A stretch of 38,527 nucleotides of DNA from a virus. How positions within the stretch are numbered: the stretch's first letter is position 1; the number at the start of each line of letters is the position of its first letter. Below are positions 21,075 to 38,265 of the stretch, in pieces. Location: positions 1 through 38,527 of the IMG/VR virus record IMGVR_UViG_3300031269_000037, one strand, 5' to 3'. The translations under genes were made by a program, and so were the position numbers. The notes under the pieces were generated by a model. It searched no databases. It saw only the letters and a program-made list of their open reading frames with translations, and was not told the DNA's origin.

Positions 21075-21557
21075 CTATACCGCTTCTGGGATAAGCGCTC
21101 TTTGTTGCGACATGTGTTGCTCGATCTCTCGAAGCGTAGGGCGGTTCGGCAAGCACTGGCTGTAGTTACGGGTTTCGTAGTCAACAGCCTTCTTCGACTC
21201 AAGTATAGGGTGTCCGTCTGCGTCCTTATCGAACTCCCATTCACAAGCGCACTTGATGCTGTATTCCAGCGTCCACTTGTGATTGCTCGTCTGCTTAGTC
21301 TTCGGCTCGTAGAGTTTCACGCCTTTAGGCAATTCGTCGTCAGTCGCGGAGTCTTCCTTGCGGGATACGCCGTGAGCACGAGGAGCGATTGTGCGAGTCA
21401 CTTTGTAGCCGATACGCTGAGCTGCATCCTTGACGGCTTTAATCGTCTCGATGTCGCCAGTGTAAGTGCCAGACAGTATCTTGCTCACAGTGTTGCGGTG
21501 AACGCCTCCACACGCTTCTGAAACGTCCGCTAGGGTTGCTTTCTTAGTGGTATCCAT
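21075..21557 (-). CDS. LacI-type helix-turn-helix protein in the head operon
   Basis: Residues 6-55 (ATLADVSEACGGVHRNTVSK, then ILSGTY..., later AAQRIGYKV) match the DNA-binding headpiece of LacI-family regulators: recognition helix, then hinge-like 'A-A-x-x-I-G-Y'. The usual sugar-binding domain is absent. Instead there are about 100 residues with a possible Cys pair (KCACEWEF) and a charged helical tail, total 160. GGAGG and a TAATG overlap tie it to the scaffold gene, and a terminator follows. It may regulate late transcription, for example at the capsid promoter just downstream, but this is inferred. It could also be a structural protein that reused an HTH. Confidence 0.72.
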   Translation of the reverse strand: MDTTKKATLADVSEACGGVHRNTVSKILSGTYTGDIETIKAVKDAAQRIGYKVTRTIAPRAHGVSRKEDSATDDELPKGVKLYEPKTKQTSNHKWTLEYSIKCACEWEFDKDADGHPILESKKAVDYETRNYSQCLPNRPTLREIEQHMSQQRALIPEAV

Positions 21558-29532: not shown

Positions 29533-29820
29533 TTACTCTGTTTCCACCTTGTTCCAGCCAATGTCCGATACTTCTCTGGTTCCAACGTGCGCAACCCATT
29601 GCTTATTATATACGCCTGCATCAACGATGCCATTTATACGCTCACGAGTAGTAACAGTGTTCCATCCTGCTAGCGTCCATTCGATGCTACCATCCTCGGT
29701 AGTGCGGATGATCTTGTTTCCGTGGAGCCAAACGGATTCACCGTCCGTGCGAGTGTTGCCCACTGAGAGGCTACGACCTGCGTGAAATGCTGCTGCGATT
29801 TGTGATGTTATTTTTTTCAT
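29533..29820 (-). CDS. Hypothetical phage protein, 95 aa
   Basis: It begins MKKITSQIAAAFHAGRSLSV, then NTRTDGESVWLHGNKIIRTT and WTLAGWNTVTTRERINGI. This arrangement (N-terminal amphipathic helix, then a beta-rich W-L-H-G-N-x-I segment and a W-x-T-x-T-x-x-R-I-N motif) is found in small conserved phage proteins of unknown role. The start is preceded by an ACATCA leader and, further up, by a dyad element with TTGACA, so it probably begins its own transcript. Confidence 0.7.
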   Translation of the reverse strand: MKKITSQIAAAFHAGRSLSVGNTRTDGESVWLHGNKIIRTTEDGSIEWTLAGWNTVTTRERINGIVDAGVYNKQWVAHVGTREVSDIGWNKVETE

Positions 29821-29853
29821 GTGATGTATTGTTCGATGTTGATGTGATGTCGT
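29821..29853 (-). promoter_or_regulatory. ACATCA-repeat leader of the 29820 gene
   Basis: On the minus strand this leader reads GACATCACATCAACATCG, then AACAATACATCAC, and runs directly into the ATG. It has no purine-rich Shine-Dalgarno site. It is one of about eleven such leaders in this genome. Confidence 0.6.
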
Positions 29854-29873
29854 GTTGACGACCCCAACATGCA

Positions 29874-29913
29874 GATACTTTAGTAGGTGTCAAGCAAAAC
29901 CTACTAAAGTATC
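29874..29913 (-). promoter_or_regulatory. Dyad element with embedded TTGACA, copy 1
   Basis: Two perfect 14-bp arms (GATACTTTAGTAGG and CCTACTAAAGTATC on the plus strand) flank 12 bases. On the minus strand the core reads GCTTGACACCTACTAAAGT, so a -35-like TTGACA sits between the arms and points to the gene starting at 29820. The -10 is poor (ATGTTG at 17 bp). The stop of the upstream gene overlaps the edge. It probably is a regulated promoter or operator; a transcript hairpin is also possible. Confidence 0.65.
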
Positions 29914-30193
29914 AATAATTCTTTTTCTTTGGACTACCATGCTCACTCATGCAATCGAACCCAGTGCTTTTTGCTATAAAGCTGGCTATGCCCATACACT
30001 CAATTCGATCCTCCATCGGCATAATGCGGACGGCTCCATCTGGCAGCTTCTGCGGTTGATGGTCTGGTAGTTCGAGAATTTCAAACGTCACCTTGCCGTT
30101 GGCAATACGCTTGACCTCCACCTTGTTGTCTTGGCTGTCGTGCCAGATTCCCCCTACCCTCAGTTTTTTTCTGCGTTCTGATAATGTGCTCAT
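29912..30193 (-). CDS. Hypothetical protein, 93 aa
   Basis: The product begins MSTLSERRKKLRVGGIWHD and contains VKRIANGKVTFEILELPD, a small beta-barrel-like (SH3/Tudor-type) arrangement with G-x-I-W and G-x-V-x-F. Its ATG overlaps the stop of a short upstream ORF (ATGA), and its own stop lies inside dyad copy 1. Function is unknown. Confidence 0.62.
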   Translation of the reverse strand: MSTLSERRKKLRVGGIWHDSQDNKVEVKRIANGKVTFEILELPDHQPQKLPDGAVRIMPMEDRIECMGIASFIAKSTGFDCMSEHGSPKKKNY

Positions 30194-30285
30194 ATTTTCG
30201 CTGGCTCTGGCTTGAAGTTTAATGCTTCTATAGCGTATCCGTTAGACAAGGCATAGGCATAATAGAGGTCTTCAAAAAGATTCAA
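30190..30285 (-). CDS. Possible 31-aa ORF or frameshift tail of the resolvase
   Basis: From a TTG at 30285 this frame encodes an acidic peptide (LNLFEDLYYAYALSNGYAIE..., ending KPEPAKI) and ends in ATGA overlapping the next gene. It overlaps the resolvase stop, where TTT TGA A would allow a +1 slip from TTT onto TTT and join this peptide to the resolvase. It is either an independent tiny gene or a frameshifted extension. Confidence 0.35.
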   Translation of the reverse strand: MNLFEDLYYAYALSNGYAIEALNFKPEPAKI

Positions 30286-30796
30286 GTTGGTATTTCGTGC
30301 TCATTCCGTAGCACAAGATATGCACAGCGTCAGCAGCGTTGTCATCGACGACATCCAAGCCCTTGAATTTCTGCTTCAATGCGTGCTCCATATCTTCTTT
30401 CTGCGCCCTTCCGCTACCAGTCGCATACTTCTTTATGGTCGTAGCTGCGTAACCCTCCAGAGGGATACTGAGGCGTGCGCAACAAGCCTGCATCAATGCT
30501 CTGTATCCGTAGGCGGCGGCTGCTGCATCTCGGCTCTGGTATTTACCAGCGGGAGCCTCGTAAAAAACAATGTCTGGTTGCTGTTCCTTGAGCAGCTTCC
30601 AAAACCATATTTCCATACGGCTGAATCTGATCCCAGAATGTTCGTCCTCTTTGGTTTTACGGCCTTTCCTTCGCTGGAAATGCTCTGTTCCAGCTTCAAG
30701 GATTCCATTGTCTAGGGTTGCCCATCCGAACCTTTCCGCTGGATCGCAAGCGAGGATACGGTGATGCTTCGGAAATGATGTCGATATTTTGTTCAT
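30272..30796 (-). CDS. RuvC-like Holliday junction resolvase
   Basis: This 174-residue protein has the RNase H-like fold pattern of phage RuvC relatives: ILACDPAERFGWA with Asp18, IVFYEAP with Glu80, ATTIKKYATGSGRAQKEDME (the conserved K-K-x-x-x-G-x-G-x-A-x-K segment) and VVDDNAADAVHI with Asp152 and Asp156. It should resolve branched DNA before packaging. Its start follows a repeat leader of AACATCAAACATCAAACATCAC without a Shine-Dalgarno site. Confidence 0.88.
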   Translation of the reverse strand: MNKISTSFPKHHRILACDPAERFGWATLDNGILEAGTEHFQRRKGRKTKEDEHSGIRFSRMEIWFWKLLKEQQPDIVFYEAPAGKYQSRDAAAAAYGYRALMQACCARLSIPLEGYAATTIKKYATGSGRAQKEDMEHALKQKFKGLDVVDDNAADAVHILCYGMSTKYQLESF

Positions 30797-30819
30797 GTGA
30801 TGTTTGATGTTTGATGTTA
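30797..30819 (-). promoter_or_regulatory. ACATCA-repeat leader of the resolvase gene
   Basis: Three tandem copies of ACATCAA/ACATCAC directly precede the ATG at 30796 on the minus strand, and no purine-rich site is present. Confidence 0.6.
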
Positions 30820-31119
30820 CGGTCTTTTAGTGATGCCTTTTTTCATTGCGGCTCGGACTGACTTGTAGTTTGAAAAGCTGATTCCCACGATGTCGCAAGC
30901 ATCGACTATCGTGATGCCTCTATCTTTTGCTGTAGAGCGGACTAAGTCGGACTGTCTGACTCGCTCGGCAAATGGTAGAGGCGACGTAGACTTCTTCGCT
31001 TGCGGCAACTGTGAGTCATGCAGGTTTGTTTCGTCCTCCGTCATCGGCCTGCATGTGATCCCCAACTCGGTAAGCCTCTGCATTGACCGCTTAATTGATT
31101 CTTGAAATTCTGGTGTCAT
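30817..31119 (-). CDS. Putative HTH-containing protein, 100 aa
   Basis: The C-terminal half (DLVRSTAKDRGITIVDACDI, then VGISFSNYKSVRAAMKKG) reads like a helix-turn-helix with a basic tail. The N-terminal half is helical (FQESIKRSMQRLTELGI), followed by a flexible linker. The ATG overlaps the preceding stop (ATGA). It is probably a small DNA-binding regulator; the family is not identified. Confidence 0.6.
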   Translation of the reverse strand: MTPEFQESIKRSMQRLTELGITCRPMTEDETNLHDSQLPQAKKSTSPLPFAERVRQSDLVRSTAKDRGITIVDACDIVGISFSNYKSVRAAMKKGITKRP

Positions 31120-31463
31120 TCTTGCCCTCTCGCTTTGGTGTGTTTTGCTACGTCCTCGTCAGCCTCGCTAAACGAATGATAAATCTGGCCGTGATTTCCT
31201 AGCATTTTAATCTTAATCCTAGCGCCTGTCCTACCCTCTACTTCGATGTCAAAGTCTGGCAGGTTGTGTCGATTATCTCTCCCTAGTGGAGTCATACTGC
31301 GAATCTTGCCAGCAGCACGAATCAAGGTCGGATGGTCGAACGCAATCGGCATATCAACATCAACGCCCTTTTCGCATAGCATCACAGCTTTGTCGTATGC
31401 CCATATTCTAGGCTCTGCTGGGATCGGTGGTATCTCTACCTCAATTTTAGGTTTGCGAGCCAT
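31116..31463 (-). CDS. Hypothetical protein, 115 aa
   Basis: Lys/Pro-rich N-terminus (MARKPKIEVEIPPIP), then a helix with AVMLCEKGVDV and a beta-rich part (DFDIEVEGRTGARIKIKMLG). It lies between NinB-like and HTH-like genes, with a one-base overlap upstream and ATGA downstream. No family was recognised. Confidence 0.6.
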   Translation of the reverse strand: MARKPKIEVEIPPIPAEPRIWAYDKAVMLCEKGVDVDMPIAFDHPTLIRAAGKIRSMTPLGRDNRHNLPDFDIEVEGRTGARIKIKMLGNHGQIYHSFSEADEDVAKHTKARGQE

Positions 31464-31939
31464 TAGCGGTCATCTGGTTGCGGTAGCGCAATTCCCTGCT
31501 CGGACACGTCGCGCTCTATGCAGTTCATATATTCACTAAACTGCTTTGTCGTCAATACTGAGGTGCTGGTCAGAAACATAATCTGTGAGCGCATAGCTTC
31601 TGCTATCTCATGGGCTCCATCGGCTCTGACCTTTTTAACCTGCATCGACATTTCGGAATACTTCGGATCGTCGCGAACTAGGATGCGAGCAAGGAATTTC
31701 CCCTTGTAGTGCTCGTGCAAGCTTTCTCGGTCTTGTCCAGTCTCCATTTCGATGACTGTGAGCCATTTCCAATAGAGCGAGTTCTGCTCTCGTGAGCGGT
31801 TTCGCTTGTATAGGCGAATAATGATTTCGAGCTGATTCTTTTCATCGACTCCAATCATGTTTGTGAGGATTCTGATCGCTTGATTTACGCGCTCTTGATT
31901 GTAAGCGACGATGCGGAAGTCTTTTCGTGATGTGGTCAT
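31463..31939 (-). CDS. ninB: NinB-like recombination protein
   Basis: The ATG at 31939, one base after the loader stop (TAATATG), gives 158 residues; the longer upstream frame is shadow sequence. The hallmark is KRNRSREQNSLYWKWLTVIE (R-S-x-x-Q-N-x-x-x-W-x-x-L), the signature of lambda NinB/YbcN. The C-terminus has the expected EYMNCIERDVSEQGIALP. NinB binds single-stranded DNA and helps annealing recombination, consistent with the nearby ERF gene. Confidence 0.82.
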   Translation of the reverse strand: MTTSRKDFRIVAYNQERVNQAIRILTNMIGVDEKNQLEIIIRLYKRNRSREQNSLYWKWLTVIEMETGQDRESLHEHYKGKFLARILVRDDPKYSEMSMQVKKVRADGAHEIAEAMRSQIMFLTSTSVLTTKQFSEYMNCIERDVSEQGIALPQPDDR

Positions 31940-31940
31940 A

Positions 31941-32726
31941 TTAAAACTTTCCGTCGAAATTACCTGCATCGAAATCAACTGTCTTATACTCGCCACGGAT
32001 GCGACGAATAATGGCTTGAACACGTTGCTGATCGGCCTTGGTAGCGTTTCCAAACTTTTCCGAGTCAGCTTCTATATCACGAGCTAATAGGTTAGTCGTT
32101 AATATCGTCGTCTTGCCCTCGCGTAGCCTCGCATCAATCAATCCCTTTAGGAACTTCGTGCAACCCTCTAGCGAGCTTCCAGACGTGAGGAAATCGTCAA
32201 TTCCAACAATGTCTGGTGTTTCAAACCTGTCTCTCAATTTAGACACGTTCAATTCACGGTAGTCACGATCCAATGCCTTATCGAGATGGTCTGCCCACAG
32301 GACATCAATCGACTTGCCATTCAAAAAAGCCAACTTGAGGCGGTGCATCATTGCTCGCGTCTTGCACGATCCAGATGCTCCGCAAAAAACTAGGTTCTGA
32401 GTGTATTCTTTGTAACCAGCCACGACCGTCCAGATACGCGAAAAGTCTTCATGCTTCAAATCGGTGTCGCGATATAGCTTAGGGCAGAACTTATTCCAGA
32501 ACTTCTTCATGGATTCTATCTTTCGATCATATTCGGCCTTCTCAACACACTTATCACAGCACAAGGAATGCGCATACGCTTTCACCACACTGCCTATCGG
32601 AGTTTCGCAAATCCTGCAATTCGATTCAACCTCAGTATCTAGGTCTAAACCATGATTTCCAATGGCAACTCCGATACTAACTGGAGAATTTGAGTCGATG
32701 TAAGTTTCTTTGTTTTGATGTTCCAT
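31941..32726 (-). CDS. DnaC-like AAA+ helicase loader
   Basis: This 261-residue protein has a Cys cluster (CRIC at 37-40, then CCDKC at 56-60), a likely zinc-binding N-terminus, followed by the ATPase: NLVFCGASGSCKTRA with Walker A 116-123, DIVGIDDF with Walker B 172-179, a sensor TTILTTNL and a terminal IIRRIRGEYKTVDF with arginine fingers. Loaders of this type put the host replicative helicase onto phage DNA. No phage helicase is visible here, so the host DnaB is the probable client. ACATCAGTCATCA precedes the start. Confidence 0.85.
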   Translation of the reverse strand: MEHQNKETYIDSNSPVSIGVAIGNHGLDLDTEVESNCRICETPIGSVVKAYAHSLCCDKCVEKAEYDRKIESMKKFWNKFCPKLYRDTDLKHEDFSRIWTVVAGYKEYTQNLVFCGASGSCKTRAMMHRLKLAFLNGKSIDVLWADHLDKALDRDYRELNVSKLRDRFETPDIVGIDDFLTSGSSLEGCTKFLKGLIDARLREGKTTILTTNLLARDIEADSEKFGNATKADQQRVQAIIRRIRGEYKTVDFDAGNFDGKF

Positions 32727-32814
32727 TGATGACTGATGTTTAAAATTTTGAGCGTTATTTTGCTAGCTATTTGTTGGTATGCGCTCCCCACCAACGAGCC
32801 ATTATCTAGGCTGA

Positions 32815-33414
32815 TTATTTTGCCGCTGGCTTTTTCTTGCGGCTGGCACGAGTTGGCTTCTTCGGTTGAGTGGACTCATCCTTATTCGATTCCTCGGCAG
32901 GATCGCTCAGATTAAGTTCATCGCCCTCTTTAGGGTCTGCTCCCGTATTGGACTTCTCTACGCCCTCAAGGGTCATTTGCAGGCGATCCCCGTTGATGTA
33001 TGCTTCGACAGCCTCGATAGCCAGAACGCACTGTGACGCTTGCTCTAGGCTTACTGCACGAGGGACATCGTCCTCTCCGTTTTCTGGAGGGTCGATGCGA
33101 AACGCTGGAGTCGAGTATTCTTTCGTGACCTCTGGTTGCTTGAATCCCTTTCGGAACTTGACGACCATTGAGCGAACACCCGCCTCGGTTCGCTTCACGG
33201 AAAAGTCGATGACCTTGACGGTTTCCATCCACTTGCTTGTCACGCCCATGATGATCTGCACGCATTCATTCAAATCTTGAATGCAGGTGTCAAACACTGG
33301 CAGAGGCGCTTCTTTGAACTTGTGTGACTGCTCTTCGTAGTCGCCTTGAGAATTTCTAGTTTCCCAAGTTGGCTCGATGAAAGTCGGTTTGATTGTTACT
33401 GATTTTAGACGCAT
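32815..33414 (-). CDS. Conserved phage protein with basic tail, 199 aa
   Basis: It begins MRLKSVTIKPTFIEPTWETR, then YEEQSHKFKEAPLPVFDTCI, then VKVIDFSVKRTEAGVRSMVV. The middle is beta-rich. The last 50 residues alternate acid and Lys/Ser/Pro, ending in a KKPTRASRKKKPAAK histone-like tail. It lies between the loader and exonuclease-side genes and may bind DNA. The family has no function known to me. Confidence 0.68.
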   Translation of the reverse strand: MRLKSVTIKPTFIEPTWETRNSQGDYEEQSHKFKEAPLPVFDTCIQDLNECVQIIMGVTSKWMETVKVIDFSVKRTEAGVRSMVVKFRKGFKQPEVTKEYSTPAFRIDPPENGEDDVPRAVSLEQASQCVLAIEAVEAYINGDRLQMTLEGVEKSNTGADPKEGDELNLSDPAEESNKDESTQPKKPTRASRKKKPAAK

Positions 33415-33418
33415 AATT

Positions 33419-33565
33419 TTACTGGTTGATGTTGTGCTTTCTGTCTTTGACGACAGGAGAGTATTTGCTACGAGACGGACGTGGAAACTTTTTTCGACCT
33501 CGGGAATGAATTGAGTTCGGTATGCCCGAACTTGGAAAACGAAGGAAGTAAGGAAGTGGATTCAT
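33419..33565 (-). CDS. Small basic protein, 48 aa
   Basis: ATG at 33565 overlaps the stop of the membrane-protein gene (ATGA). The product begins MNPLPYFLRFPSSGIPNS and is Arg/Lys/Pro/Ser-rich. Its final codons (KHNINQ) lie in the ACATCA-type leader of the next gene, so this region codes and acts as a leader at once. The family was not recognised. Confidence 0.5.
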   Translation of the reverse strand: MNPLPYFLRFPSSGIPNSIHSRGRKKFPRPSRSKYSPVVKDRKHNINQ

Positions 33566-33813
33566 AATATAATTAGTTTGATTGATTCGGAGATAATGTA
33601 TGCCCACGCCCAGAGCGTAAGCGGGATGGCGATTGCCAGTATAAAAACAAGAGCCGTCTTTGTGCGACGAACGGCTGGCTTGGAGTTCTCACGTAGCACT
33701 GTGATTTGACGGAGGATCGAGCGGTAGCGCTTACTGTCCATCGGGTCATGCTTGAAAGTAATGCAGAGCTGTCGCTCTTCTTCCGCTTGGTATAACAGTC
33801 GTTCGATACTCAT
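33562..33813 (-). CDS. Small membrane protein with coiled N-terminus, 83 aa
   Basis: Residues 1-50 are helical and charged (MSIERLLYQAEEERQLCITF, then YRSILRQITVLREN). Residues 51-74 form a TM helix (TALVFILAIAIPLTLWAWAY), with a short tail. The start overlaps the exonuclease stop (ATGA). The role is unknown. Confidence 0.62.
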   Translation of the reverse strand: MSIERLLYQAEEERQLCITFKHDPMDSKRYRSILRQITVLRENSKPAVRRTKTALVFILAIAIPLTLWAWAYIISESIKLIIL

Positions 33814-34460
33814 AACCCGACGACCTTATTTATTTCTACGAGCGCCATCACGTCTTGACGCAAGTAATCGTGAAAAAGTTGATACTCAGAATCGAAGATG
33901 TCATAAGGAAGCTTGCCATCGAGATCGACCTTCAATGGCATTCCTAGGTGCGCCAGTGCTCCGTTAAGCGAAGCATAGCGCTCGTCAGAGCCTATACACC
34001 AGTGCTGCATCAAATCCTTGTATCGAGCATTTAAGAAGCTGCGACCACGGTAGTTCTCAAGAGCGGTAGGTGGAATCTTAACGCGATTCGCCCAGCTTCG
34101 CTTTATCAAAAATGGCAGGTCGAAGTTGTTAAGGTTCCATCCTATCACATCCGTAGTCATTGCGCCGTGGGCTGCGATTCTAGCCCAGAGTTCTTGAATC
34201 ATGAATTTCTCAGATACGCATAAGCATTCATCGCCAGCGTTATACTCCTCAGTTTCTTCGTCGTAAAAACCGTATGCCTGTATGGTTCCAGTAAACGGAC
34301 TCAGCGCTGCTTTCTCGATGAATGCGGCCTGTTTTTTAGCGATGTCCGCTGCGATCTTAGCAGGGTCTTTGATGTTCTTTGCGGCCTCGAACTTTGGCAT
34401 AATTGCTTCAAGTTCTGCTAGCGGTTTTGGTTTCGTTTCTAGGTCGATATATTTACTCAT
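33810..34460 (-). CDS. DEDDy 3'-5' exonuclease
   Basis: This 216-residue protein is RNase H-like: YIDLET gives the first D-x-E (Asp6, Glu8), GWNLNNFDLPFLIKR gives the second Asp, and YLRQD (Tyr199/Asp203) the DEDDy signature. The long insertion after the first strand (KNIKDPAKIAADIAKKQAAF, then ALSPFTGTIQAYGF) recurs in phage exonucleases of this kind. No DNA polymerase is encoded here, so it may edit or resect ends for ERF-driven annealing. An ACATCA leader precedes the start. Confidence 0.85.
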   Translation of the reverse strand: MSKYIDLETKPKPLAELEAIMPKFEAAKNIKDPAKIAADIAKKQAAFIEKAALSPFTGTIQAYGFYDEETEEYNAGDECLCVSEKFMIQELWARIAAHGAMTTDVIGWNLNNFDLPFLIKRSWANRVKIPPTALENYRGRSFLNARYKDLMQHWCIGSDERYASLNGALAHLGMPLKVDLDGKLPYDIFDSEYQLFHDYLRQDVMALVEINKVVGL

Positions 34461-34526
34461 AATGATGTGTCTTTGATGTTATTTTAGTTAATGCAGTGTA
34501 AGGTGCTGCGCCCTGTAGATATCATC

Positions 34527-34886
34527 TTAGAACGGAACCTCCTCGTCGAGCACAACATCGTCAGCATCAAAATCCTGCTGTCGATCATCCTTCGGTTGCT
34601 GCTTTCTAGCCTCGCCTAGACGTTCCAGCTTCCAGACGTTGTTCGAGCCGAACCAGCGATCTTTCCAAGCACGACCGCGCAGGTCGAACGTGACAGTTAC
34701 CTTGTCGCCCTTGCGGATGCCTTTGCTGTCTAGCAGGTCACACGCTTTGTTTGCGCACTCAAACGGTATCTGCTGTGGATACTTGTCGGCCTCGTCGTCA
34801 AGCACGAGGAGGCGCTTGTAGAACTTGTCCGTGATGTCTTCGCGTGGTGTCACTTCGACGACTTTTCCTGTAAATTCGTAGCTCAT
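34527..34886 (-). CDS. DUF3127 OB-fold protein with SSB-like acidic tail
   Basis: The ATG at 34886 (AAGGATCATAATATG, TAATATG coupling after the ERF stop) gives 119 residues. The pattern YEFTGKVVEVTPREDITDKF, then QIPFECANKACDLLDSKG, then GDKVTVTFDLRGRAW, then RWFGSNNVWKLERL matches the DUF3127 OB-fold. The tail ends DDVVLDEEVPF, very like the C-terminus of bacterial SSB that recruits partner enzymes. It may serve as the phage single-stranded DNA-binding protein, working with ERF. Confidence 0.82.
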   Translation of the reverse strand: MSYEFTGKVVEVTPREDITDKFYKRLLVLDDEADKYPQQIPFECANKACDLLDSKGIRKGDKVTVTFDLRGRAWKDRWFGSNNVWKLERLGEARKQQPKDDRQQDFDADDVVLDEEVPF

Positions 34887-34887
34887 A

Positions 34888-35598
34888 TTATGATCCTTGT
34901 GTTTGTTTGGTGTCGAAGTTTTCCTTCGATGAAAGCGGCTCGTCTTTACGTTCCGCAAAATTCTGCGACTCTACGATAGCTGATTCGAGACGCTTCTTAG
35001 CAAGCTCGTGATCCAAGATGCACGAATCAATGAACTTCAAGACAGCTTGAAGCGCCTTAGTATCGCCTTCACCAGCGACATCGCCTAAGCTCTTGCCCTT
35101 GTGCGGTTCTTTGGATGACGGAAACGGGACTTCAAACCACTTAGCTTCTGGATCAGTTTCGAGTGCTTCAGCGATCTTCTGCTGTGCTGACTTCTTTGGC
35201 GCTGGCTTGCCCTCGTTGGTGTTATCACGAGTATCAGCATCCTTTGTGTCGTCGATGGCAAATAGGCCGTTTAAGGCGTATTTACGTGCATAGGATGATG
35301 CGGCTCCTGTCACCTGCGCTTCGTCCATCCCTTTTTTAGACAGAGCTTCACGAGCAAATGCGTTTACTTCCCAACTCTTGTCACCCTCGCAGTCGGACAA
35401 TTTAGCCGTGGCCTTGACGTAGACCCGATCCCCAACACAAACAATGTCGTCGGAGATGACCAGCGAGCACGAGTGCTTCTGTAATAATGGCTTCAGAGCT
35501 TCAAGGATGCTTTCGCAGCTTCGGTATTTGTAGCCTCCAAAAGAATTATTTAAGTCCTTCGGTGCTTTAAGTTCATTTTGTATTAATATGAGTTTCAT
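34888..35598 (-). CDS. erf: ERF-family single-strand annealing protein
   Basis: This 236-residue protein has the ERF core: N-terminal FGGYKYRSCESILEALKPLL, strand SLVISDDIV, KATAKLSDC, then the diagnostic AQVTGAASSYARKYALNGLF and AIDDTKDADT. A Pro/Lys linker and a C-terminal helical region follow (residues 155-236). It should anneal single strands during phage recombination, helped by the DUF3127, NinB and RuvC products encoded in the same operon. Confidence 0.9.
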   Translation of the reverse strand: MKLILIQNELKAPKDLNNSFGGYKYRSCESILEALKPLLQKHSCSLVISDDIVCVGDRVYVKATAKLSDCEGDKSWEVNAFAREALSKKGMDEAQVTGAASSYARKYALNGLFAIDDTKDADTRDNTNEGKPAPKKSAQQKIAEALETDPEAKWFEVPFPSSKEPHKGKSLGDVAGEGDTKALQAVLKFIDSCILDHELAKKRLESAIVESQNFAERKDEPLSSKENFDTKQTQGS

Positions 35599-35612
35599 GA
35601 TGATTTCGATGG

Positions 35613-35807
35613 TTAGATTGTCGTATTAAATCGACGGTTGACGTGATTCTTGTAGTGCTCGATTGCGCTGTCCATGACAACGCCCTCGGAGCGAGATTCA
35701 GTGATGCCCTTGATAGCCTTGATAGCCTCCAAGTTTTCGGGCTTCACCATACAGCCTAAACGGACTCGCTTTGATGGCTCAGTTTTAACTTCAGTTTTAT
35801 TGCTCAT
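35613..35807 (-). CDS. Small ribbon-helix-helix-like protein, 64 aa
   Basis: The sequence (KRVRLGCMVKPENLEAIKAI, then TESRSEGVVMDSAIEHYKNH) fits a basic beta-strand followed by two helices, as in Arc/MetJ-type regulators. It is the second gene of the early minus-strand operon. A 13-bp tandem duplication just precedes its start. It could bind an early operator; not proven. Confidence 0.6.
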   Translation of the reverse strand: MSNKTEVKTEPSKRVRLGCMVKPENLEAIKAIKGITESRSEGVVMDSAIEHYKNHVNRRFNTTI

Positions 35808-35819
35808 TATTCGTGGTGA

Positions 35820-36161
35820 TTATTCGTGGTGATTAACGCGACGTGGCGTGTTGTGAAATCGGCCTTCCGCTTCCTTTTCGGCAGTGGACTGGCTCGATGG
35901 TGATTGCTCGATAAACGCAGGCTTGCCATGTAGCCATTGAGCTACGTTTGCAGACTTGTAGCCTAGCACTATTTCGCCTTCCGCTTGGTCGGCCTTTAGA
36001 GAGTATGCTAGATGCTCGGAAGCGATACTGTAAGCGGTGTGAACACCAAACTGTAACGCCTCGCGATAAGAGTCGCCGCTTTCCTTGTGCTTGTTCGCTT
36101 CGATCAAAGCTTCGTTTGACCATTTTTGAAATGCTTCGATAGCATGGATTACTTTTTTCAT
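35820..36161 (-). CDS. First early gene product, 113 aa
   Basis: The product (MKKVIHAIEAFQKWSNEALI...) is helical through residue 65, then has a VLGYKSANVAQWLHGKPAFI segment and a polar tail. It is the first gene after dyad copy 2. Its leader is the best example of the repeat leader (two copies of ACATCAACCATC). Being first in the early operon it may act on the host, but no family was recognised. Confidence 0.65.
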   Translation of the reverse strand: MKKVIHAIEAFQKWSNEALIEANKHKESGDSYREALQFGVHTAYSIASEHLAYSLKADQAEGEIVLGYKSANVAQWLHGKPAFIEQSPSSQSTAEKEAEGRFHNTPRRVNHHE

Positions 36162-36202
36162 GATGATGATGTGATGGTTGATGTGATGGTTGATGTGATT
36201 AA
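36162..36202 (-). promoter_or_regulatory. ACATCA-repeat leader of the first early gene
   Basis: Read on the minus strand, ACATCAACCATC occurs twice in tandem, followed by ACATCATCATC and the ATG at 36161. No Shine-Dalgarno site is present. It is the richest copy of this leader type. Confidence 0.65.
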
Positions 36203-36284
36203 GTGGAGTGGGTTTCGTGACATCCGTTACGCCAGCGTGTCAGTGCTGACTTCCAAAAGTGGCGATTCACAAATAAGATCACAG

Positions 36285-36316
36285 ACCTTAGTAGGTGTCA
36301 AGCAACTTACTAAAGT
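36285..36316 (-). promoter_or_regulatory. Dyad element with embedded TTGACA, copy 2 (early leftward promoter candidate)
   Basis: ACCTTAGTA and TACTAAAGT flank 14 bases. On the minus strand it reads ACTTTAGTA ... GCTTGACACCTACTAAGGT. TTGACA at 36301-36296 is followed after 17 bp by TCTTAT, a fair -10, about 110 bases before the first early gene. It faces away from copy 3, so the two bracket the control region. Confidence 0.68.
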
Positions 36317-36364
36317 TTCTGAAAATAATTATTCAGACCACCCTTAACCATTGAAACCCTGCAT

Positions 36365-36415
36365 CTAAATGCCATCTATCAGCAGTGCAGCTTGGTGATG
36401 CTTGCTGTGATTCAT
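36365..36415 (-). CDS. 16-codon mini-ORF with an early-type leader
   Basis: The ATG at 36415 is preceded on the minus strand by CCATCAAACATCATCATT, the same leader as that of the pentapeptide gene (ACATCATCATTATG). It encodes MNHSKHHQAALLIDGI and stops. It may be a leader peptide, or the remains of a deleted early gene whose start survived. Confidence 0.35.
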   Translation of the reverse strand: MNHSKHHQAALLIDGI

Positions 36416-36433
36416 AATGATGATGTTTGATGG

Positions 36434-36467
36434 AAGCCCTACCGATTTCGATTGGTAGGGCTTTTTT
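36434..36467 (+). terminator. Intrinsic terminator with UUCG loop
   Basis: AAGCCCTACCGAT pairs with ATTGGTAGGGCTT (one G-U pair) closing a TTCG tetraloop, followed by T6. It is a very strong plus-strand terminator, but no plus-strand gene lies upstream. It would end a short RNA beginning near 36320-36400. Confidence 0.9.
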
Positions 36468-36581
36468 CATTTAGGGCTTGACCTGCGTGCTGAACGGGTA
36501 ATTGATGCTCTTAATTCACTTGGTCGCACTTGTGTAGAATCTTAACTTTTGCGCTGGAATGATAACTTCCCCAGCAAATTT

Positions 36582-36619
36582 AAGCCCTTACGAATGCGAC
36601 CTCGTAAGGGCTTTTTTTT
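36582..36619 (+). terminator. Intrinsic terminator, 12-bp stem
   Basis: AAGCCCTTACGA pairs perfectly with TCGTAAGGGCTT, with a loop of eight, followed by T8. It is the second plus-strand terminator without an upstream gene. A smaller hairpin (GCTGG/CCAGC near 36553-36575) lies just before it, so a structured small RNA may end here. Confidence 0.9.
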
Positions 36620-36951
36620 GGCCCTGACCGAAGGGACAGGCAACGACTTGAGGGAGTTTTCAGCGTGACAACTGACTAGCCCTCGCCACTGGTGCAGTCA
36701 GCTATGCAAAATGATGGCTGCTTAATATGGATCGCTCGATTTACTGAGCGTGTGAACTCTCCTGCCACCATGCCTATTCATCGGAAACTGAAGCCAGCAT
36801 CGGGGAGAGTAGCGAAAGGTCATCCCCTGTTATTTCAAGGATACTCTACGTGCATTGTTTTCCTCTATCAGTTCTATGGGGTAGGGGGAAACTGTGCCGT
36901 AGCCACCACAGCAGTCATTTCAATTAAGGATAAACGATAACCTAAGACACC

Positions 36952-37183
36952 ATGAAATTATATATCATACAGGCAAACGAGTATTTCAAAGTAGGCATCA
37001 GTGTTAATTAGCAAAAGGAATTTGAGATATATAATGACTGCGGGGATCGGTATAACTAAAAATGGCGTAAGGCTACTAGGAATGAGTTATCCACTTAAAA
37101 GTGAATGGATGAAAAATGTCTCAAGTATGGAGGTGGACAAGAATAAGTTCCTAGCCTTAGCGGAAGTAGCACGAACCAAGTAG
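36952..37183 (+). pseudogene. Frameshifted GIY-YIG/T5orf172-like remnant
   Basis: The ATG at 36952 reads MKLYIIQANEYFKVGISVN and then stops at 37009-37011. In the next frame reading goes on as ISKRNLRYIMTAG... to 37183 (60 codons from a GTG at 37001). The combined start (Y-I-I-Q-x-x-x-x-x-K-V-G-I-S, then K-R-x-L-R) resembles the opening of GIY-YIG-superfamily T5orf172 proteins. The rest does not align well. Homing-type or nuclease remnants in a control region would be plausible. Resemblance is short, so confidence is low. Confidence 0.35.
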
Positions 37184-37221
37184 ACTTTAGTAAGTCCAAG
37201 CTTGACACCTACTAAAGTCTA
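37181..37221 (+). promoter_or_regulatory. Dyad element with embedded TTGACA, copy 3 (early rightward promoter candidate)
   Basis: Perfect 12-bp arms (TAGACTTTAGTA and TACTAAAGTCTA) flank 17 bases, with GCTTGACACCTACTAAAGT at the right side. TTGACA is at 37202-37207 and points to the pentapeptide gene 62 bases on. Outer arm bases differ from copy 1 yet still pair (GAT/ATC there, TAG/CTA here). The -10 (AATCTG) is weak. Confidence 0.68.
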
Positions 37222-37235
37222 CGCAATCTGAATCA

Positions 37236-37269
37236 CGGCAATCACGCCACATCAACCAACATCATCATT
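37236..37269 (+). promoter_or_regulatory. ACATCA-repeat leader of the pentapeptide gene
   Basis: CCACATCAACC then AACATCATCATT leads directly into the ATG at 37270. No Shine-Dalgarno site is present. The last 14 bases including ATG equal those before the minus-strand mini-ORF at 36415. Confidence 0.6.
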
Positions 37270-37800
37270 ATGAAAACATACACACCATCCGAACTCACAG
37301 AAATCATCCGCAAGCATCACTTATACTTAGAACACGAAAAAGGCGGTGAACGTGCTAACCTCCGCTATGCTGACCTCCGCTTTGCTGACCTCCGCTATGC
37401 TAACCTCCGCTCTGCTGACCTCAGCTATGCTAACCTCAGCTCTGCTAACCTCAGCTTTGCTAACCTCAGCTATGCTAACCTCAGCTCTGCTGACCTCAGC
37501 TATGCTAACCTCAGCTTTGCTGACCTCAGCTCTGCTGACCTCAGCTCTGCTGACCTCAGCTATGCTTCGGCTGGAAATAACATTGAAGTTAAAACGCTAC
37601 AACTCGGAAAATACTACACTGTCATCAGCGCGTATAAGGTGCGTGTCGGTTGCCAGTCACACACGCTCGAAGAATGGAAAGGTTTCGATGATCGCGCCAT
37701 ACTAGAAATGGACGGTAAAGACGGACTGATCTGGTGGAAACAATGGCGTGACGTTATTTTTCAAGTCGCTGCAACTATCCCTACGCCCGAAGTTAAATAA
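37270..37800 (+). CDS. Pentapeptide-repeat protein
   Basis: In this 176-residue protein, residues 27-100 are about 15 pentapeptide units of the form A(N/D)L(R/S)(Y/F/S), which fold as a right-handed beta-helix. A helical N-terminus (TPSELTEIIRKHHLYLEHEK) and a 75-residue C-terminal domain flank it. That C-terminal domain (VISAYKVRVGCQSHTLEEWK, then WWKQWRDVIF) often accompanies phage pentapeptide proteins. Some pentapeptide proteins mimic DNA and bind gyrase or other DNA-binding enzymes. Here it is the first gene of the rightward early arm, so a host-directed role is an inference. Confidence 0.88.
   Translation: MKTYTPSELTEIIRKHHLYLEHEKGGERANLRYADLRFADLRYANLRSADLSYANLSSANLSFANLSYANLSSADLSYANLSFADLSSADLSSADLSYASAGNNIEVKTLQLGKYYTVISAYKVRVGCQSHTLEEWKGFDDRAILEMDGKDGLIWWKQWRDVIFQVAATIPTPEVK
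37345..37564 (+). repeat. 15-bp tandem repeats of the pentapeptide gene
   Basis: About 14-15 units of GCTAACCTCAGCTCT or GCTGACCTCCGCTAT type. High identity at DNA level, including third positions, suggests recent expansion by recombination or slippage. Confidence 0.9.
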
Positions 37801-37823
37801 TCAACACATCATATCCCATAACT

Positions 37824-38265
37824 ATGAAAGACCGATACACAAGACAATGGATCACCGACAACAGCATCGAAATCGTATCCCAATACGAGGACGGCGAACT
37901 AACTATTCGTGCGCTACACTATCAGCTCGTGGCTATCGGGATGACTAACACCCTCCAGCACTATAAGCGAGTAGTCGGAGCAATGATCGCCTCAAGACGC
38001 GACGGAATCATTGGCTACTCTAAGTTTTCTGACCACCGACCGCGAGGCCATTGGCGAAACAGAATGGGAGCCAGTCAAACTCGAAGCAGAGATAAGCAAA
38101 GGGAAGCGTCAGATTGCCCTCTGGATGGAGAGCTATAATCGAAACCGATGGGAAAACCAAGAAAACTACGTCGAAGTATGGATCGAGAAGAAAGCCCTGC
38201 AAGGTGTGTTCGCTCCGATCTGCGCTGCCAATGACGTTGCCCTCTGCCCATGCAAAGGCCGTTAA
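37824..38265 (+). pseudogene. Frameshifted Spo11/TOPRIM-like phage protein
   Basis: The first frame (from ATG 37824) reads MKDRYTRQWITDNSIEIVSQ, then ALHYQLVAIGMTNTLQHYKR and MIASRRDGIIGYSKFSDHR, and becomes nonsense near 38040. The +1 frame continues with TTDREAIGETEWEPVKLEAE, then SYNRNRWENQENYVEVWIEK and KALQGVFAPICAANDVALCP, and stops at 38265. Together they match the first half of a phage and bacterial family with LxYQLVxxG, F-x-D-x-D-R, and YVEVWIEKxAL...C-x-G motifs that I associate with TOPRIM/Spo11-like folds. The rest of the family's length is missing. The gene is therefore broken, unless the shift is programmed or a sequencing error. Confidence 0.6.

Follow-up and report, generated by a model that had tools for sequence, protein, structure and literature searches.

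Inverted pairs of a conserved arm motif around −35-like boxes at three putative early promoters of a phage and its relative

The phage genome analysed here is the IMG/VR virus record IMGVR_UViG_3300031269_000037, all 38,527 bases of which are referred to as the window. Another contig of this phage (L002) spans the window ends with an overlap of 127 bases, which makes it probable that the genome is circular and complete. Its leftward early operon opens with genes for a 113-aa protein for which no family was found (35820–36161, minus strand) and a 64-aa protein (35613–35807, minus strand), and also encodes an Erf annealing protein, an SSB-like protein, an exonuclease-like protein, a DnaC-like loader, NinB/Orf, and a RuvC-like protein. 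Within this operon, an inverted repeat (dyad A, 29874–29913) lies between a gene for a 93-aa protein (29912–30193, minus strand) and a gene for a 95-aa protein (29533–29820, minus strand; phrog_554, Kyano_Gp96-like), which has a CA-rich leader without a Shine-Dalgarno sequence. Two further dyads are located ahead of the leftward early operon (dyad B, 36283–36318) and ahead of the rightward genes (dyad C, 37180–37222), the first of which encodes a 176-aa protein with pentapeptide repeats (37270–37800, plus strand). B and C flank a noncoding stretch on its two sides.

Dyad A consists of two 15-nt arms (29874–29888, GATACTTTAGTAGGT; 29899–29913, ACCTACTAAAGTATC) that are complementary at all 15 positions and separated by a loop of 10 nt. 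It is the top-scoring inverted repeat within the window. In 100 first-order Markov shuffles of the window, the longest perfect arm did not exceed 12 nt (mean 9.2), which establishes that the mirrored sequence reported in the original prediction is real. The outer arm bases are likewise as claimed (GAT/ATC at A; (G)TAG/CTA(C) at C); the claimed spacing of 12–17 bases between the arms has to be corrected to loops of 10 (A), 8 (B), and 11 nt (C). On the minus strand, the upstream core arm of A (29899–29910, ACTTTAGTAGGT) is followed by a −35-like box, TTGACA, in the loop (29888–29893, part of the conserved GCTTGACA), and the downstream core arm (29877–29888) falls within the spacer between this box and a weak, predicted −10 box (CATGTT, 29866–29871, minus strand; spacer of 16 nt, three of six matches to TATAAT). 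TTGACA is oriented toward the gene starting at 29820, and the outer bases of the dyad (29911–29913) overlap the TGA stop codon of the 93-aa gene (29914–29912, minus strand), both in agreement with the earlier description.

The other two dyads share the layout of A. Dyad B has its cores at 36285–36296 and 36305–36316, with TTGACA at 36301–36296 (minus strand) and a weak candidate −10 box, TCTTAT, at 36278–36273 after a spacer of 17 nt; it is an imperfect copy whose outer bases are unpaired. In dyad C, the cores (37184–37195 and 37207–37218) enclose TTGACA at 37202–37207 (plus strand), and the candidate −10 box (CAATCT, after a 16-nt spacer) is weak. In the direction of the downstream gene, the elements of a site are the upstream arm ACTTTAGTARGT, a loop with GCTTGAC, and the downstream arm ACCTACTAARGT. 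The final loop bases together with the first arm base form TTGACA, which is on the plus strand at C and on the minus strand at the other two sites. The box is present in the loop at all three sites and is directed each time at a gene start approximately 60–140 nt further on. The centres of the 12-nt cores are 22 (A), 20 (B), and 23 bp (C) apart, and every arm is itself near-palindromic (ACYT-N4-ARGT, in full ACYT-TAGT-ARGT). With as many as two mismatches allowed, the 12-nt arm core ACTTTAGTARGT has 12 occurrences in the window, compared with 3.3 expected, a count that was not reached in any of 100 shuffles; the arms of A, B, and C account for six of the 12. This motif count and the maximal arm length of 12 nt in the shuffles rule out a chance match. 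No third arm (up to two mismatches) was found near the sites, save for a match with two mismatches at 36249–36260. A consensus promoter scan of the window, which requires a good −10 box, called none of the three putative promoters.

An exact 16-mer comprising the −35 box and an arm matched one other phage in IMG/VR (IMGVR_UViG_3300045738_000688, 40,445 bp; hereafter G004), which is collinear with the window over much of its length. The two phages share identities of 82% (capsid protein), 62% (terminase), 68% (RuvC), 60% (93-aa protein), and 54% (64-aa protein). Site S4 of G004, located after the 93-aa gene that adjoins RuvC, is the ortholog of A. Sites S2, located before the Erf operon, and S1, located on the divergent side, match B and C, respectively. 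A further site (S3) has kept the upstream arm and GCTTGAC and lacks the downstream arm. TTGAC is retained in seven of seven promoters of the two phages, including the one-armed S3, and two arms flank the −35 box at all three sites of the window and at the three two-arm sites of G004. The conservation of both arms at three matching places in a second phage bears out the view that the dyads are more than a −35 box. Searches with other queries returned little beyond the phage itself: an exact 17-mer search recovered L002 only, the protein of 113 aa and a 49-aa ORF matched only the contig of L002 in protein scans, and no phage match was obtained by tblastn with a 60-aa ORF, a 56-aa candidate, the capsid protein, or the 113-aa protein. 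The region of A is absent from contigs L083 and L084. L084 (2072–3730) is 96–99% identical to the window on both sides of a terminase that is only 56% identical, a mosaic that suggests gene exchange. The matches listed in a full-text search for CTTTAGTAGG were unrelated by title, and no paper on the motif was found in the literature searched.

It had also been proposed that the arms co-vary and that base pairing or symmetry itself is selected. The sample for this question comprises the six two-arm sites, three in the window and three in G004, the single divergent relative found; L002 represents the same phage and offers no usable divergence. Across the 15 pairs of the six sites, 81 of 90 cells pair if G-U is allowed. 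Unpaired arm changes, the result that speaks against selected pairing, occur in the remaining nine cells, all of them at B-type sites (three in the window, three in G004) and C-type sites (one and two, respectively), which amounts to 9 of the 60 cells of these two types and none of those of the A type. The proposal holds for the outer edge, as two-sided changes are restricted to positions −3 and −1 (five cells; shuffles give 2.0, and 4 of 500 attain five), where 7 of 12 cells match without G-U (3.3 on average in 720 permutations, 4.4% of which do as well). It also agrees with the comparison of A and S4, which keeps 15 of 15 pairs as sense-strand RNA (G-U allowed) through two double changes and two G-U changes, a weak test because it involves two sequences and 131 of 500 shuffles pair as well. 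It fails at B, where pairs are broken, and for the 12 core pairs, none of which shows a two-sided change among the six sites; core positions vary on one side or not at all, and the core match count of 63 equals the permutation mean of 63.

Core position 10 is A in three of the six upstream arms and in none of the six downstream arms. Because of this bias and the one-sidedness of the core changes, the arms appear to evolve as separate sites, and the loss of one arm in S3 suggests that they also change as separate units. Selection of base pairing as such is not shown by the alignment. Since the core changes are one-sided, 9 of 90 cells are unpaired, S3 is one-armed, and the test on the A pair is weak, a pair of distinct binding sites on either side of a −35 box gives the better fit. 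Arm symmetry alone is no proof of selected base pairing when core positions change in this one-sided manner.

We regard it as likely that each dyad is an inverted pair of operators for one sequence-specific regulator at an early promoter and that this arrangement recurs at three early promoters of both the window and G004. This reading is based on the presence of three dyads with one arm motif far above chance, on the TTGACA in the loop of all three sites and its direction toward gene starts, and on the matching three sites at matching places in G004; it is further favoured by the separate evolution of the arms, the one-armed S3, and the similar layout of inverted repeats in other Erf phages (see below). 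The sites, their recurrence, their location, and their conservation in G004 are demonstrated; promoter function, repression, and co-operativity are inferred. One operator would immediately precede the −35 box, and the other would occupy the spacer that separates this box from the −10 box. Each near-palindromic arm would probably be occupied by a dimer, and the two dimers, approximately two helical turns apart (20–23 bp from centre to centre), would probably be in contact and block RNA polymerase. B and C would then be divergent early promoters beside the noncoding stretch, and A an internal promoter of the leftward early operon that starts the gene set at 29820. Two binding sites around a −35 box would explain why the spacing keeps to a conserved range, why the loop contains a promoter box, and why the arrangement is repeated at early promoters. 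Repression would be the likeliest effect because one site lies within the spacer, with some room for activation given the weak −10 boxes. Several observations count against the operator reading: A and C have poor −10 boxes, and no promoter was called by the scan at any of the three sites; the two-sided changes at −1 and −3 are not predicted by simple independent sites; the full RNA pairing of copy A is kept in its ortholog; and the analysis recognised no CI-like repressor or integrase and found only one related phage.

The closest parallel is found in phage lambda, where two operators for CI and Cro (OR1/OR2 at PR, OL1/OL2 at PL) lie on either side of an early promoter's −35 box, with one of them in the spacer. 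Passages of PMC5481185 describe the co-operative binding of CI to OR1 and OR2 and its competition with polymerase. As with OR1 and OR2, the present phage has two operator-like copies astride the −35 box, one of them in the −35/−10 spacer, with centres about two turns apart and divergent early promoters. Unlike lambda, which has three sites per promoter, it has two, which are arranged in strictly inverted orientation and have a 12-nt core; it also has an extra copy within the early operon, and no cI- or cro-like gene was found. The scattering of a repeated site through the genome resembles the stoperators of mycobacteriophages. Stoperators, however, are reported to be single asymmetric repressor sites in numerous places, whereas the sites of the present phage are paired, inverted, and confined to three promoters.

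A different function is conceivable for copy A, which is the only one of the three sites to lie within a transcription unit. In read-through mRNA from promoter B, it could form a hairpin with a 15-bp stem at the end of the 93-aa gene and take part in the processing or stability of the mRNA, whether or not it is also an operator in DNA. Folding of the sense strand yields −20.7 kcal/mol for A and −20.3 kcal/mol for S4 (0 of 200 shuffles as good) and −18.8 kcal/mol for C (0 of 200); B folds at chance level (22 of 200). The energies of A and S4, the complete set of pairs retained in S4, and the restriction of broken pairs to B- and C-type sites all accord with a hairpin at A, which we nevertheless consider unlikely: the comparison is limited to two sequences that many shuffles equal in pairing, the same sequence is present at B upstream of its own start site and with broken pairing, and a hairpin has no need for a conserved TTGAC in its loop. 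An intrinsic terminator at A can be rejected, since none was called in the scan and the AT-rich stem is not followed by a U-run in the RNA (T-run in the DNA). The dyad is also ruled out as a known RNA, as the Rfam covariance models gave no match in the window at gathering score. A combination of both functions is a quite improbable reading, according to which A would be a two-level switch, acting in DNA as a paired operator around an internal early promoter and, in read-through RNA from B, as a conserved hairpin where the upstream gene ends; the same letters would govern new starts and the fate of passing transcripts, and the regulator would be a small protein of an undescribed family.

The arms might instead be activator sites, at which an early phage protein binds to turn on middle promoters with weak −10 boxes. 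The weak −10 boxes of A and C and the retention of only the upstream arm in S3 would suit this explanation, which is rendered improbable by the near-perfect −35 box at every site, the arm inside the −35/−10 spacer (a location typical of repressors), the arm-to-arm distance that ranges over 20–23 bp, and the position of B ahead of the apparent first early operon. The outer symmetry could also have arisen by mutation and without selection, through quasi-palindrome correction during replication, which would yield matched outer bases that vary between sites without any function and is compatible with the two-sided changes; such an origin accounts neither for the presence of a −35 box in the loop nor for the conserved placement and seems a rather poor candidate. 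Very unlikely is the notion that the phage has borrowed the sites of a host regulator. It draws on the lack of a clear phage regulator among our findings and on a similar, perfect dyad in a Crocosphaera MAG (contig L094, 3419–3456; loop TTGACA on the minus strand), which lies 17 nt upstream of where an 85-aa HTH_3 gene starts. However, the six genome matches in a collection of 257 Gb are near chance (about three by our own estimate), and the dyad is present in only 1 of 50 genomes of the Crocosphaera family; the Crocosphaera dyad is a lead only and may itself be due to chance.

The regulator of the proposed operators would most likely be a protein of the phage. Searches of the window and G004 with HTH_3 and RHH_1 gave nothing above the cut-off, with no RHH_1 match at all in either phage. 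No cI- or cro-like HTH gene adjoins the sites, as the HTH_3 search of the window yielded only a sub-threshold match (21435–21536) in a gene of the structural module. This gene, located near the capsid gene, encodes a 160-aa protein (21075–21557, minus strand) with sub-threshold matches to HTH_3 and LacI-type domains; an HTH_3-like match is found also in G004. A weak candidate for a protein that binds the arms is the 64-aa product of the second gene after B, which is best conserved in a KRVRLGCM stretch that precedes helical residues. By eye, the protein resembles ribbon-helix-helix (RHH) proteins, with a strand (RVRLGCM), two helices, and RSE. It has no match in Pfam or PHROGs at E values of up to 10, and an hmmsearch with a profile of 14 RHH sequences gave an E value of 11. 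In hhalign comparisons with RHH, it ranked 4 and 8 among 534 ORFs, with a probability of only 5.5% for the pair. AlphaFold2 models are of low confidence (pLDDT 67.7 and 68.6) and differ in helix layout, with either one long helix or an extended N-terminus and two helices, and no Foldseek match was obtained. Arc and Mnt of phage P22 are small RHH repressors of early promoters. If it binds the arms, the 64-aa protein would be like them in being a very small protein of the early operon that controls early promoters, but unlike Arc and Mnt, its RHH identity is confirmed by neither Pfam, PDB sequence, AlphaFold2, nor Foldseek.

The noncoding stretch between B and C contains a segment (36670–36935, plus strand) that is conserved in G004 (L108, 12745–13020, minus strand). 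A consensus fold of the two sequences has 53 pairs, nine of which are changed on both sides; a shorter consensus fold of the stretch has 38 pairs, seven of them with two-sided changes. The stretch has no Rfam match at gathering score or at relaxed thresholds, and a model of 36691–36842, run against 56 sources, has matches only in G004, L002, and the window. Single-strand folding of 36640–36950 is unremarkable compared with shuffles (z −1.3). The conserved segment is probably an undescribed phage RNA that is apparently structured, and it is more unusual than the probable paired operator. Two stems resembling rightward intrinsic terminators lie upstream of it (36432–36465 and 36582–36613), and G004 has a similar stem (L108, 13036–13070). 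An ORF of 50–60 aa (37001–37183) is situated between the conserved RNA and dyad C, with its stop codon overlapping the outer arm of C. Relatives of this ORF outside the phage were not found by a protein scan or by tblastn in phages, and it is missing from G004, where the conserved RNA abuts the dyad. The early genes (29533–38138) also differ from other genes in their leaders: a Shine-Dalgarno sequence precedes 3 of 18 early genes versus 13 of 28 others, and CATCA, ACATC, or ATCAT is present within 30 nt of the start in 9 of 18 versus 2 of 28. ACATCA-like leaders occur also in G004, after S1 and S3.

A comparison with other phages that encode Erf gives a hint that the lambda-like layout may recur with unrelated arm sequences. 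In 80 loci of Erf phages, TTGA[CT][AT] is enclosed by 4 of 15 distinct strong inverted repeats (redundant arms removed), compared with zero to two in each of 11 decoy orderings. This count weighs more than our first survey of dyads (L013, L023, L064, and L082), which had a single shuffled control and included redundant loci and a terminator; the dyads in these four loci are analogies only, and that of L013 falls inside an ORF. Long dyads around TTGAC are present in L064 (237–285) and L023 (7875–7912), and the dyad of L064 lies upstream of its Erf gene and has a good −10 box. If the layout recurs with unrelated arms, it would serve to locate operators in phages with unrecognisable repressors. 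For the lineage studied here, which lacks a recognisable repressor, three putative promoters with one shared motif would provide a testable map of early gene control.
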